From the NCBI RefSeq assembly GCF_004214895.1, contig NZ_CP035952.1, positions 1,178,001-1,242,000 on the forward strand: 64,000 nucleotides of DNA, in the 5' to 3' direction. Numbering within the stretch: position 1 is the first letter of the stretch; each line of letters begins with the position of its first letter. This DNA is from Pseudomonas tructae (GTDB taxonomy: Bacteria > Pseudomonadota > Gammaproteobacteria > Pseudomonadales > Pseudomonadaceae). The translations under genes and the position numbers were made by a program. Positions 54,750 through 58,652 of the stretch are shown here, piece by piece. The notes under the pieces were generated by a model that saw only the letters and a list, made by a program, of their open reading frames with translations, was not told the DNA's origin and made no database searches.

Positions 54750-55438
54750 ACCAGGACAACCAGGGGCTGGATTTTTCGACGGTGATCGCCTCCACCGTAC
54801 ACGACATGAAAAACTCCCTGGCGGCCCTGACCCAGGCTCACAGCCAGTGGCTGGCGCGCCTGCCCGAGGCCCTGCGCAGTGGCAGTGAGCAGGGGGTGAT
54901 GGAGCATGAGTTCAGCCATCTCAACGGCATGCTGGTGCAGTTGCTGGGCCTGTACAAACTGGGCGTCAACCAGTTGCCCATGTGCCCTGACTACCACGAG
55001 CTCGATGACTTTCTCGAAGCGCAACTGGCAGCCCAGCAGAACCTGCTGCAGCACCGCGATATCCTTGCCAGTTGCCGAATCGAAACCGCCAGCCCGCTGG
55101 GTTTTTTCGATCGTGAACTGGTGGGCTCGGTGGTTGCCAATATCATCAACAACGCCATTCGCTATGCCGGGCATACCTTGCTGATCAGCGTCAGCGACGA
55201 AGGTGATCAATTGGTGCTGAGCATCAACGACGACGGCCCGGGCTTCCCGGTACGCATGCTCGAGCGCCAGCAGGAGTACGTGCAGGGCATCGATGGCCAG
55301 AGCGGCAGCACTGGCCTTGGCTTGTACTTCGCGGCGCGAATTGCCGGCCTGCACGAGCGCAATGGCGTGAAAGGGCGGATCGAGATCGCCAATGGCGGTG
55401 TTCTGGGCGGGGGGCTGTTCAGGCTCTACCTGCCTTAA
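54746..55438 (+). CDS. soluble sensor histidine kinase (HWE/HisKA-type, no membrane segment)
   Basis: 230 residues. The His box is STVHDMKNSLAAL (His19). The N box is VANIINNAIRYAG, G1 is NDDGPGFP and G2 is GSTGLGLYFA, so the ATPase domain is complete. There is no TM segment, sensor domain or signal peptide; the short protein is kinase core only, so its input must come through a partner, perhaps the TPR part of the receiver protein. It is coupled to the receiver gene. Confidence 0.92.
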   Translation: MNQDNQGLDFSTVIASTVHDMKNSLAALTQAHSQWLARLPEALRSGSEQGVMEHEFSHLNGMLVQLLGLYKLGVNQLPMCPDYHELDDFLEAQLAAQQNLLQHRDILASCRIETASPLGFFDRELVGSVVANIINNAIRYAGHTLLISVSDEGDQLVLSINDDGPGFPVRMLERQQEYVQGIDGQSGSTGLGLYFAARIAGLHERNGVKGRIEIANGGVLGGGLFRLYLP

Positions 55439-55944
55439 TGGCTTCAGAGGATTTTAGGCGGCACAAGTGCGAAGGTGGGCCTGCGCGAGAAGTAATAGTG
55501 GTCTGCCCAAGAGGGCTGTTCGAGAGACACACAGGGGCAATGGCACAACTTCGTTCGTGTGCCGGTGGAGCGTCTGGACGACTACAGTTAGAGCGCTTGC
55601 ATGACATGAACGGCCCAGCGCTATGTGGTCTTGACGACAACATAGATGGCAATCTTCGGCTGCACTGCTCTTCTGTGGGTAAAACGGGACTCTCAGGATA
55701 AGCAAACGCGCATTTTCCTGCACATCAATTTGTGGAATCAGAGCTTTACGCGCCTTGTGTGCCATCTGCCAATGCTCGCTTACAGATCAAGATGGCCCAA
55801 AGCTGGCGCTTGGCCCAAGTCGAGATGCGGCGACAGTCAGGCGGCGAGCTGTCGAAAATTGATGGCGCGAGGGGATTGCTGGTTCGAGTACCGGGATTGC
55901 TCAGGGTGGCCCAACACATTGATATCATTAGAGTTGAATATTTT
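55439..55944. other. left part of accessory island, no recognised gene
   Basis: About 500 bp in which no open frame has coding character comparable to neighbours. The longest small frames (for example 86 codons at 55732-55992 plus, 103 codons at 55454-55765 minus) have no recognised product and no good ribosome site. Base composition shifts toward lower GC rightwards. It may hold gene remnants from past insertions. Confidence 0.5.
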
Positions 55945-55971
55945 GCCGTAAAAAAATTACGGCAGTTTTTT
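55945..55971 (+). terminator. intrinsic terminator upstream of the ATPase gene
   Basis: GCCGTAA-N5-TTACGGC (55945-55963), a perfect 7-bp stem, followed by AG and six T (55966-55971). It would stop plus-strand transcription coming from the kinase side, insulating the island, or act as an attenuator on a leader transcript. Confidence 0.8.
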
Positions 55972-55982
55972 CGGCCCTGCGA

Positions 55983-55988
55983 TATGAT
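55983..55988 (+). promoter_or_regulatory. -10-like hexamer of the ATPase-Toprim cassette
   Basis: TATGAT 35 bp upstream of the ATPase start, just after the terminator. No good -35 is seen 16-18 bp upstream (it would overlap the terminator stem or T-run), so the promoter may be weak or activated. Confidence 0.4.
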
Positions 55989-56022
55989 CTAGTCTGTTTC
56001 TGCACGTTCGGAAGGTCTAATT

Positions 56023-57171
56023 ATGTTGAGTAAATTCGAAGTTAAAGGATTTAAAGGGTTCAGAGATACATTTATTTTTGATTTGAAGCAGAAGAATGAA
56101 TATAAGTTCAATACTGAGGCGGTTAATAATGGAATTATTAGAAACAGTATTGTATATGGGCGTAATGGTTGTGGTAAGACAAATTTAAGTTATGCTTTGT
56201 TTGATATTGTCAATAACATTGGGGATAAAGCAAGTCGTCGAAAATTTTACGCGAGAAATTATTTGAACGCTGGTAGCGTCGAGCGCAAGGCTGTATTTAG
56301 TTATACCTTCAAGTTCGATGATGATGAGCTTGTCTATAATTACGAGAAGGAGTCTTCTGCAAAGATTCTCAAAGAGACGGTGATGATTAATGGCCGCACA
56401 TGTATAGTTGCTGATCGAAGTGGGGCGGTAAATATAGTTGTTGACTTGCCGGGTGCTGATACCTTGAATAAGGATATTGATGATCTTTTTGATATATCAG
56501 GGGCGGCGGTTTCAATTGTTTCTTATATTCGTTCAAATACGCTGTTGCCAGATGTTGGTGAGTCGGCGGTGTTTAATAAATTTGTAAAATTTGTTCATGG
56601 TATGTTGTTGGTGCGCTCTCTCGAAAGCAACTCGTTTGTCGGGTTGAATGAGTCCGAGAAAAACGTATGTGAAGATATTGTGGAGAACGGCGGTATTGAG
56701 GATTTTGAGATTTTCCTCAACAAGAATGGGATTAAGTGTAAGTTGGTAGAGATATCCGATAACGATGGAAAGGATATTGCATTCGATTTTGATGGGAGTT
56801 TGATTCCGTTTGCCGAGATTGCTTCCACCGGAACCCGGACTCTATGCCTATTCTATTTTTGGTTAATGCGTATTCGAGAGGTCGGGCGAATCAGCTTGGT
56901 ATGCATTGACGAATTCGATGCCTTCTATCATCACGAATTATCGCTGTCCGTAGTCGAAGTACTCAAGCACTCGGGCATTCAGGTGATCCTGACAACTCAT
57001 AATACCGCCATTATGAGTAACGACCTGCTGAGGGCCGATTGTTATTTTATCATGGACGAAACTCGGATTGTTTCCCTTGCGGACACAACGGACAAGGAGA
57101 TCAGGCAGGCCCATAATCTTGAAAAAATATACAAGGCAGGAGGTTTTAGTCTGGAGAGAATCAGCGGATGA
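56023..57171 (+). CDS. ABC/AAA15-type ATPase of a putative defence cassette
   Basis: 382 residues. Walker A is GRNGCGKT (46-53). A signature-like STGTR lies at 268-272, Walker B is SLVCIDEFD (291-299, catalytic E297) and the switch His is in TTH (324-326). The start KFEVKGFKGFRD is the usual AAA15/SMC-like head; the ending LRADCYFIMDETRIVSLAD, then AHNLEKIYKAGGF, is what I know from RloA-type ATPases. No coiled-coil of SMC length is present. Codon use is AT-rich (ATA, AAT, TTA frequent), unlike neighbours, indicating transfer. It overlaps the next gene by 4 bp. Confidence 0.85.
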   Translation: MLSKFEVKGFKGFRDTFIFDLKQKNEYKFNTEAVNNGIIRNSIVYGRNGCGKTNLSYALFDIVNNIGDKASRRKFYARNYLNAGSVERKAVFSYTFKFDDDELVYNYEKESSAKILKETVMINGRTCIVADRSGAVNIVVDLPGADTLNKDIDDLFDISGAAVSIVSYIRSNTLLPDVGESAVFNKFVKFVHGMLLVRSLESNSFVGLNESEKNVCEDIVENGGIEDFEIFLNKNGIKCKLVEISDNDGKDIAFDFDGSLIPFAEIASTGTRTLCLFYFWLMRIREVGRISLVCIDEFDAFYHHELSLSVVEVLKHSGIQVILTTHNTAIMSNDLLRADCYFIMDETRIVSLADTTDKEIRQAHNLEKIYKAGGFSLERISG

Positions 57172-57971
57172 GTAAGTCGCAGCATATTCTTTTCGTATTC
57201 GAAGGCGAGCGTGCTGAAAAACTAATTAGTCGCAAGTTTATTGAGTATTATTTCTCCGATGCCCTTGGGAGTGTTGTAACAACGGCATTTTGCGGAGAGA
57301 TTTATCAGTTGCTGGAGAAAATGAAAGATGATGACTTTGGGCTTGGTAGCATTGATTTGTTTCCGTTGTTGCAGGAGATACCCCAGAATCAGTTGCTAAA
57401 GTCGTATCGGAGAGATCAGTTCTCTGAAATATATTTGTTTTTTGATTATGATCCTCATGCTAGCAAAGCCTGCGATGTAAAAATACAAGAGCTGTTGGGG
57501 TTTTTTACGCAAGAAACCGATCATGGTAAACTGTTCATCAGTTATCCTATGGTTGAAGCGGTTCGTTGCCTACATGAGGACTGTGGGGTCGATTGTTTCT
57601 CCACCTTGGCGGTACCCTTGGCCTATGGTAATGCGTTCAAGGATTTTTCTTCCAAATATGCTTCGAATACGTTCAGGCAGGTCAATGTGTGGTCGCGCCA
57701 GTACTGGGACGAAATCGTACTTCGGCACTGCGAGAAAGCTAATCTGATCGTAAATGGACAGTCGGAGCTTCCAGAGACGCCCATCGAGTCGCATGAAATA
57801 TTTGAAGGGCAGCTGCGTTTCATTAATGAAAGCGGGCTCGTATATGTGCTCAGCTCTTTCCCATTGATGCTTGCCAGCTATTACGGTATGCCCAAGGTAC
57901 GAAGCTTTTTGCGAGGCTCGCTTAGCGGTAACAACTGCCCACATCGTCAACTGCTGGAGGCTTTGCCTTGA
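57168..57971 (+). CDS. Toprim-like partner protein of the ATPase (unassigned family)
   Basis: 267 residues. I see ILFVFEGE near the start (E12) and IYLFFDYDPHASK near 89-100 (D93-x-D95), which fit a Toprim nuclease-type Glu plus DxD, followed by YPMVEAVRCL at 126-135. I could not place it in RloB, DUF4435 (AriB) or OLD families by eye, though the gene arrangement is the same. ATPase plus Toprim pairs of this type are usually anti-phage modules. Translation is coupled to the ATPase (ATGA). Low GC as for the partner. Confidence 0.7.
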   Translation: MSKSQHILFVFEGERAEKLISRKFIEYYFSDALGSVVTTAFCGEIYQLLEKMKDDDFGLGSIDLFPLLQEIPQNQLLKSYRRDQFSEIYLFFDYDPHASKACDVKIQELLGFFTQETDHGKLFISYPMVEAVRCLHEDCGVDCFSTLAVPLAYGNAFKDFSSKYASNTFRQVNVWSRQYWDEIVLRHCEKANLIVNGQSELPETPIESHEIFEGQLRFINESGLVYVLSSFPLMLASYYGMPKVRSFLRGSLSGNNCPHRQLLEALP

Positions 57972-58013
57972 CGGAGAGGCTGTGCCCTGTCATTCATTCC
58001 CACGAGGTTTCCC

Positions 58014-58652
58014 ATGGCCACCAATCTCCTGATCCGCGAAACCTTCCCCGTCGGCCCGTTGCAGTGCAATTGCACCATCATTGGCGATCCGATCAGCAAA
58101 AAGGCCATCGTCGTCGATCCGGGCGGCAACCCCGAGCAGATTCTTGCCCGCCTCGATGCCCATGGCTTGAAGGTGGTGAGTATCATCCATACCCACGCGC
58201 ACCTGGACCATTTCCTCGCTTCCGGGCAGTTGAAGGAGAAGACCGGCGCCACCTTGCACCTGCACAAGGACGACCAGTTTCTCTGGGATAACCTGGAAAT
58301 GCAGTGCCAGATGTTCGGCGTGCCCTACACGCCGGTACCGGCGCCGGACCGCTGGTTGGCCGACGATGAAGAGCTGGCCTGCGGCTGCGGGGTGGCCTTG
58401 CACACCCCGGGGCATACGCCGGGTTCGATGAGCTTCTGGTTCGCTGACGCCAAGCTGCTGATTGCAGGCGATACGCTTTTTCGTCGTGGGATTGGTCGCA
58501 CCGATTTGTGGGGTGGCGATCAGGCGACTATCGTTCGTTCCATCAAGCAGCGCCTGTACAGCCTGGATGAAGAGGCCACGGTGGTGACCGGGCATGGTCC
58601 GGACACGCGCCTGGGCGATGAAATGCGCCAGAACCCGTTTGTGCGGGCCTGA
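58014..58652 (+). CDS. MBL-fold hydrolase, glyoxalase II-like (GloC/YcbL type)
   Basis: 212 residues. The metal site has HTHAHLDH (His/Asp cluster) and the second-half motif LHTPGHTPGSMSFW; GDTLFRRGIGRTDL and the late VTGHGPDTRLGDE complete the pattern. Type-II glyoxalase activity (hydrolysis of S-lactoylglutathione) is probable. It begins 42 bp after the island's last gene and marks the return to core genome. The ATG at 58014 has GAGG-like sequence 10 bases upstream. Confidence 0.9.
   Translation: MATNLLIRETFPVGPLQCNCTIIGDPISKKAIVVDPGGNPEQILARLDAHGLKVVSIIHTHAHLDHFLASGQLKEKTGATLHLHKDDQFLWDNLEMQCQMFGVPYTPVPAPDRWLADDEELACGCGVALHTPGHTPGSMSFWFADAKLLIAGDTLFRRGIGRTDLWGGDQATIVRSIKQRLYSLDEEATVVTGHGPDTRLGDEMRQNPFVRA

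Follow-up and report, generated by a model that had tools for sequence, protein, structure and literature searches.

A 64,000 base pair (bp) stretch of Pseudomonas tructae contig NZ_CP035952.1 (positions 1,178,001 to 1,242,000, hereafter the window, with positions counted from its first letter) carries a cassette of two genes, called A and B here, between a histidine kinase gene and a metallo-hydrolase gene. An earlier first-pass annotation, made from the letters of the window, had described this pair of open reading frames (ORFs) and the 4-base overlap that joins them at 57168-57171, and its coordinates proved exact:

55435..58027, no strand: variable slot holding the cassette, from the histidine kinase to the metallo-hydrolase (glyoxalase-like); one relative, L201, has 122 bp here
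56023..57171, + strand: gene A, ABC/SMC-type ATPase, PDC-M12A, 382 amino acids; presumed sensor and restrainer of B
57168..57971, + strand: gene B, PDC-M12B, 267 amino acids, remotely RloB-like; presumed Toprim-type nuclease effector
57168..57171, + strand: ATGA overlap coupling the stop of A to the start of B, read from the sequence

A PADLOC scan of the locus, which the first-pass annotation had proposed as a check, called both genes PDC-M12. In PADLOC-DB 2.0.0, A matches PDC-M12A with an E-value of 5.5e-146 (residues 1-376 on profile positions 1-368/369), and B matches PDC-M12B over residues 4-248 with 1.7e-80 for the best of the five PDC-M12B models. At E<=1, B matches no PADLOC family besides PDC-M12B, and the AbiLii model gives no match. 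Each of the five PDC-M12B models is matched at E<=0.01 by all 58 proteins of our alignment A1, which consists of the window's B and 57 of 120 listed homologues. At E<=1e-3, B has 1212 homologues and A has 2015, each query counted with its own set, numbers that put the cassette well beyond chance. It is an intact, acquired member of the PADLOC-listed candidate family PDC-M12 and not a new family. The suggestion that B might belong to a new or unnamed effector family therefore falls, since PADLOC already names both proteins, albeit as a candidate family.

The acquisition is visible both in the composition of the genes and in the comparison of the insertion site. The GC content is 0.406 in A and 0.453 in B, against 0.61-0.65 in five other measured genes and 0.612 in the window as a whole, and at third codon positions it is 0.44 and 0.50, against 0.78-0.81 in the same five genes, which bears out the low GC and the deviating codon usage remarked on earlier. 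The closest relative found, L201, is 96% identical up to 55434 and 97% identical from 58028, with 122 bp between these points where the window has 2,593, and this supports horizontal acquisition of the pair. At E<=1e-3, the kinase DNA has a match in 199 of the 278 genomes drawn from the genus, a count that takes in the genome of the window. Of the 29 best loci other than the window's, 24 have the hydrolase after the kinase within the fetched flank, and in 5 it was not found there. Measured as distances between aligned blocks, the spacing is 68-223 bp in 11 loci, 472 bp in 1, 813-848 bp in 7 and 1,166-1,366 bp in 5. In three of the loci (L206, L219 and L226) the slot is occupied by a gene of similar appearance, about 180-205 amino acids long. 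A single-protein search of 398 genomes of the genus found B homologues in two, that of the window itself and another whose protein is 33% identical. A wide distribution by vertical descent with ordinary codon use, which had been named as evidence against a mobile defence role, is therefore absent. By family models, RloB occurs in 11 and DUF4435 in 6 of 119 genomes of the genus.

The two genes travel together. Of the loci of B relatives (the best 80 of 222 confirmed), 79 have A immediately upstream of B and in the same orientation, the sole exception being L112, where the sequence begins inside B at a contig end. The genes overlap in 77 of the 80 pairs, L002 counted in, with overlap lengths that rest on mechanically chosen starts; in L051 the genes stand 2 bp apart, and the gaps of 243 and 280 bp in L072 and L073 perhaps reflect start or frame errors. 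We also scanned 133 of the 140 ORFs of at least 120 amino acids picked as nearest on each side of the 80 loci, the other 7 having been dropped at a locus end. At 1e-20 they matched PADLOC models for DpdF, mad3 and type I specificity (2 each) and for PDC-S06, PDC-S02, PsyrT, RT, AbiLi and Cas1 (1 each), in a tally that covers the best 25 of 73 matching models, some of which possibly hit the same protein. None of 39 distal control genes had a PADLOC match (90 had been picked and 51 were dropped by hand, mostly at a locus end), and so few control genes do not allow defence-island enrichment to be claimed. Pfam searches of the nearest and distal gene sets gave nothing decisive.

Gene A encodes an ATPase that matches Pfam AAA_21 at 9.2e-17; in NCBIfam neither A nor B comes near a cut-off. 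The complete set of ATPase motifs attributed to A at first sight holds up, the key residues being invariant in all 50 proteins of alignment A4 (the window's A and 49 of 120 listed homologues):

56155..56181, + strand: Walker A, residues 45-53, YGRNGCGKT; G46, N48, G51 and K52 invariant in A4
56824..56832, + strand: ABC signature-like S268-T-G270; S268 and G270 invariant in A4
56896..56913, + strand: Walker B, residues 292-297; closing D296-E297 invariant in A4
56998..57000, + strand: His switch H326; invariant in A4

After PDC-M12A, the next best PADLOC match of A is AbiLi (1.8e-35), and AriA is also matched (1.5e-19); Septu PtuA and retron PtuA are among its best structural matches. The profile of A finds the ATPase that stands beside RloB in 38 of 41 RloB loci, and hhalign gives 98.6% for the family of A against one RloB-linked ATPase. 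In a tree, 89 M12 ATPases group in a clade of their own, separate from 37 ATPases that partner RloB (support 0.847 and 0.997). A is thus a homologue of the AbiLi/RloA-type ATPases, yet belongs to a separate clade. One of the loci (L013:190-2193) has an AbiLi-like ATPase followed by a RloB gene with a broken frame.

The identity of B called for more distant comparisons. The first-pass annotation had pointed to E12 and D93xD95 as a Toprim-like pattern, and these residues are near-invariant across 137 B proteins (A1 together with the locus proteins, filtered at 200-320 amino acids, the window included and duplicates possible), where they lie in three motifs:

57201..57218, + strand: B motif 1, E12-G-x-x-x-E17; E12 and E17 each in 136 of 137; aligned to RloB E-G-x-x-T-E
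57444..57458, + strand: B motif 2, D93-Y-D95-x-H97; kept in 137, 133 and 135 of 137, respectively; RloB F-D-x-D-x-H
57543..57557, + strand: B motif 3, Y126-P-M-x-E130; Y126, P127, M128 and E130 in all 137; RloB S-x-P-C-F-E

All four exceptions at D95 have E. Beyond these, G13 is present in 136 and E116 in 135 of the proteins, and K158, W180 and Q215 in all 137. The Pfam RloB model matches 22 of the 58 members of A1 at E<=1, mostly weakly (best 1.7e-7), and does not match the window's B itself. Of 8 members scored singly, P0074 is the only one above the RloB PF13707 cut-off, with 32.0 bits against 31.5, and P0005, which is 71% identical to B, reaches 20.4 bits. PADLOC AbiLii matches 8 of the 58 (best 1.2e-5) and Pfam Toprim matches 2, weakly (best 0.02); at E<=0.01, members of A1 match 9 PADLOC families, none of them AriB.

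The families were also compared as profiles with hhalign. The 137 B proteins (100 kept after its filter) were set against 28 diverse RloB proteins (29 listed, L141 left out), 11 DUF4435 proteins, 20 OLD Toprim domains and a kinase control (12 loci named), each E-value being that of one comparison. Against RloB, the B family scored 86.6% in local mode (E 4.5e-6 over 104 columns) and 68.1% in global mode, and the alignment places E12-G-E17, D93-Y-D95-x-H97 and P127-M-V-E130 of B onto the matching RloB motifs. The corresponding local and global values were 0.5% and 0.1% for DUF4435, 0.1% and 0.1% for OLD Toprim, and 0.3% and 0.1% for the kinase control; an earlier set of 3 DUF4435 proteins had given 0.7%. 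RloB against DUF4435 gave 63.8% locally and 24.4% globally. A predicted structure of B, with a predicted local distance difference test score (pLDDT) of 86.4, has a single match below 1e-3 in BFVD, an RloB-like protein (E 4.1e-4, probability 0.99). B is remotely RloB-like, though it is not an RloB by the PF13707 cut-off. The partner, left unassigned at first sight, can be placed remotely, as RloB-like, even though the window's B misses the RloB, DUF4435 and Toprim models. By the profile comparison, with values of at most 0.5%, B is not a DUF4435 or OLD-Toprim protein.

Relatives of the pair are carried by mobile elements. B relatives occur on 14 of 72,556 plasmid records and 3 of 50,697 phage records, all three of the latter from Vibrio cyclitrophicus. 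When 5426 E. coli genomes were searched with the pair from a 4.4-kb plasmid, 9 gave near-identical matches, at 13 places that all lie on plasmids of 4.0-4.4 kb, with at least 80% covered by the best place in 7. On one such plasmid, NZ_CP101918.1 (L134), a PDC-M12-like pair is the largest cargo and a Rop-family gene lies nearby. The filamentous Vibrio phage PQ189311, of 10.5 kb, has a PDC-M12-like pair as cargo (L135:7075-8941) between a gene-1-protein-like gene and a putative regulator. A Fusobacterium match lies in a stretch of a 2.1-Mb record that bears no annotation.

We think it fairly probable that the cassette is an anti-phage system of two genes, acquired horizontally, that belongs to the PDC-M12 candidate family and works in the manner of PARIS and AbiL. 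Its activity, trigger and target are modelled here on published related systems. An ATP-bound oligomer of A would keep B inactive, and a phage product that disturbs A would free it. By analogy, B is probably a Toprim-type nuclease and an RNase. It would act as a metal-dependent Toprim-fold enzyme through E12, D93, D95 and perhaps E130 and, once freed, would cut RNA, most likely tRNA, so that translation would stop and the infected cell would yield no phage. According to PMC10440598, neutralisation of toxicity in E. coli validated toxin-AAA pairs that include an RloB homologue from Clostridium algidicarnis (node D44); RloB homologue is that source's term, and RloB proper and PDC-M12B-like proteins are left undistinguished under it here.

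Several observations weigh against this picture of an RloB-related anti-phage pair. The window's B has no Pfam match at E<=1 and hence misses the RloB model, and an earlier, narrow set of 11 mostly similar Pseudomonas RloB proteins gave 2.0% against B. The BFVD match of the B model has low template modelling scores (0.30 and 0.37) with a root mean square deviation of 17, the model has no PDB match under 1e-3, and in the fold search OLD-Toprim and the PARIS complex appear only amid unrelated rows, with no clear winner. The M12 ATPases do not nest within the RloB-partner ATPases. RNA rather than DNA as the target of B is drawn purely from analogy. The full texts of 5.39 million openly licensed articles in PMC, a scope that leaves out preprints and subscription papers, make no mention of PDC-M12 and yielded no published activity for any of its members. 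The abbreviation PDC is expanded as putative or as phage defence candidate; according to PMC12988326 and PMC12548924, such candidates derive from guilt-by-embedding, and validation is lacking for most of them. Two other PADLOC candidates, PDC-M63AB and PDC-S04, gave no defence when tested, according to PMC12409345, and PMC10440598 records one AAA-toxin pair that scored no hit when tried on the BASEL phages.

The same two genes could confer immunity with B as a DNase that destroys phage or host DNA, as in OLD and GajA. We regard this as unlikely, in view of the 0.1% that the 20 OLD Toprim domains give in the profile comparison and the fact that A and B are separate proteins, unlike OLD and GajA. 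It is somewhat harder still to credit that the pair is an addiction-type toxin-antitoxin module that stabilises its carrier elements, with phage defence secondary or absent. The confinement of the E. coli relatives to plasmids of about 4 kb would fit such a role, as would the neutralisation of an RloB homologue's toxicity by its AAA partner (PMC10440598); the pair described here, however, sits on a 5.69-Mb contig between genus-conserved genes, and A is also recognised by models of ATPases from phage defence systems, although the two roles are not exclusive. That the cassette is a neutral passenger, recently acquired and not working in this host, seems to us very improbable: its rarity in the genus, with B homologues in two of 398 genomes, agrees with a passenger, but both reading frames and the motif residues are intact.

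The DNA between the kinase and A adds a few features of its own. The first 584 bp of the block, 55439-56022, have a GC content of 0.522, with 55440-55930 of moderate GC and the strongly AT-rich part starting at about 55,900, and contain only small ORFs of about 100 amino acids on either strand. Compared with 398 Pseudomonas genomes, with 2 candidates scored per genome, 55440-56022 has just two matches beyond its own genome, of 33 and 40 bp. With 3 of 398 genomes matched, counting its own and these two pieces, we rejected the idea that it is the remnant of a mobile element. One element lies just before A:

55943..55965, + strand: terminator-like hairpin with a 9-pair stem and a run of six T after it, some 57 bases upstream of A

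The 101-nucleotide stretch 55930-56030 folds better than its shuffles (z -3.25); promoter-like and terminator-like sites are not above shuffles (5 against 4.5 and 2 against 2.5, respectively). The hairpin could end an upstream transcript or attenuate A.

With this analysis a gene pair that had been unassigned finds its place in a listed candidate system, and B gains a probable RloB ancestry together with candidate active-site residues for mutation, which makes PDC-M12 directly testable. The 4-kb E. coli plasmids are a natural form of the pair for work in laboratory E. coli, and if B is a tRNase, the group of Toprim tRNases widens beyond AriB. More tentatively, two-gene ATPase-Toprim immunity may have in PDC-M12 a third separate branch next to PARIS and AbiL/RloAB, one that answers to a phage trigger of its own, attacks an RNA target of its own and is used even by a filamentous phage to fight its rivals.

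Among known systems, the first reading of the locus as an acquired ATPase and Toprim-like pair with the architecture of RloAB, PARIS and OLD is supported. With PDC-M12, of which it is a member, the cassette shares both proteins, their order and the operon. The likeness to Septu PtuAB and retron PtuA lies in the ATPase fold, but the partner B, which has no Pfam match at E<=1, is not an HNH nuclease. OLD and Gabija GajA share with the cassette an ABC ATPase and the Toprim chemistry presumed for B, whereas ATPase and effector are here two ORFs rather than one chain and the OLD Toprim profile gives 0.1%. PARIS, in which a hexamer of AriA holds AriB until a phage trigger such as Ocr appears, also consists of two genes, for an ABC ATPase and a Toprim-like effector (AriB/DUF4435) with a key N-terminal Glu, and a note in the Vibrio phage record PQ189311 labels the ATPase of the relative Paris_II__AAA_21; in contrast, A scores more weakly on AriA than on AbiLi and B has no DUF4435 match. 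The window's B misses the RloB cut-off and the AbiLii model, which sets the cassette apart from AbiL/RloAB, but the two systems have in common a homologous ATPase, the gene order and a remotely homologous effector with its three motifs in register.
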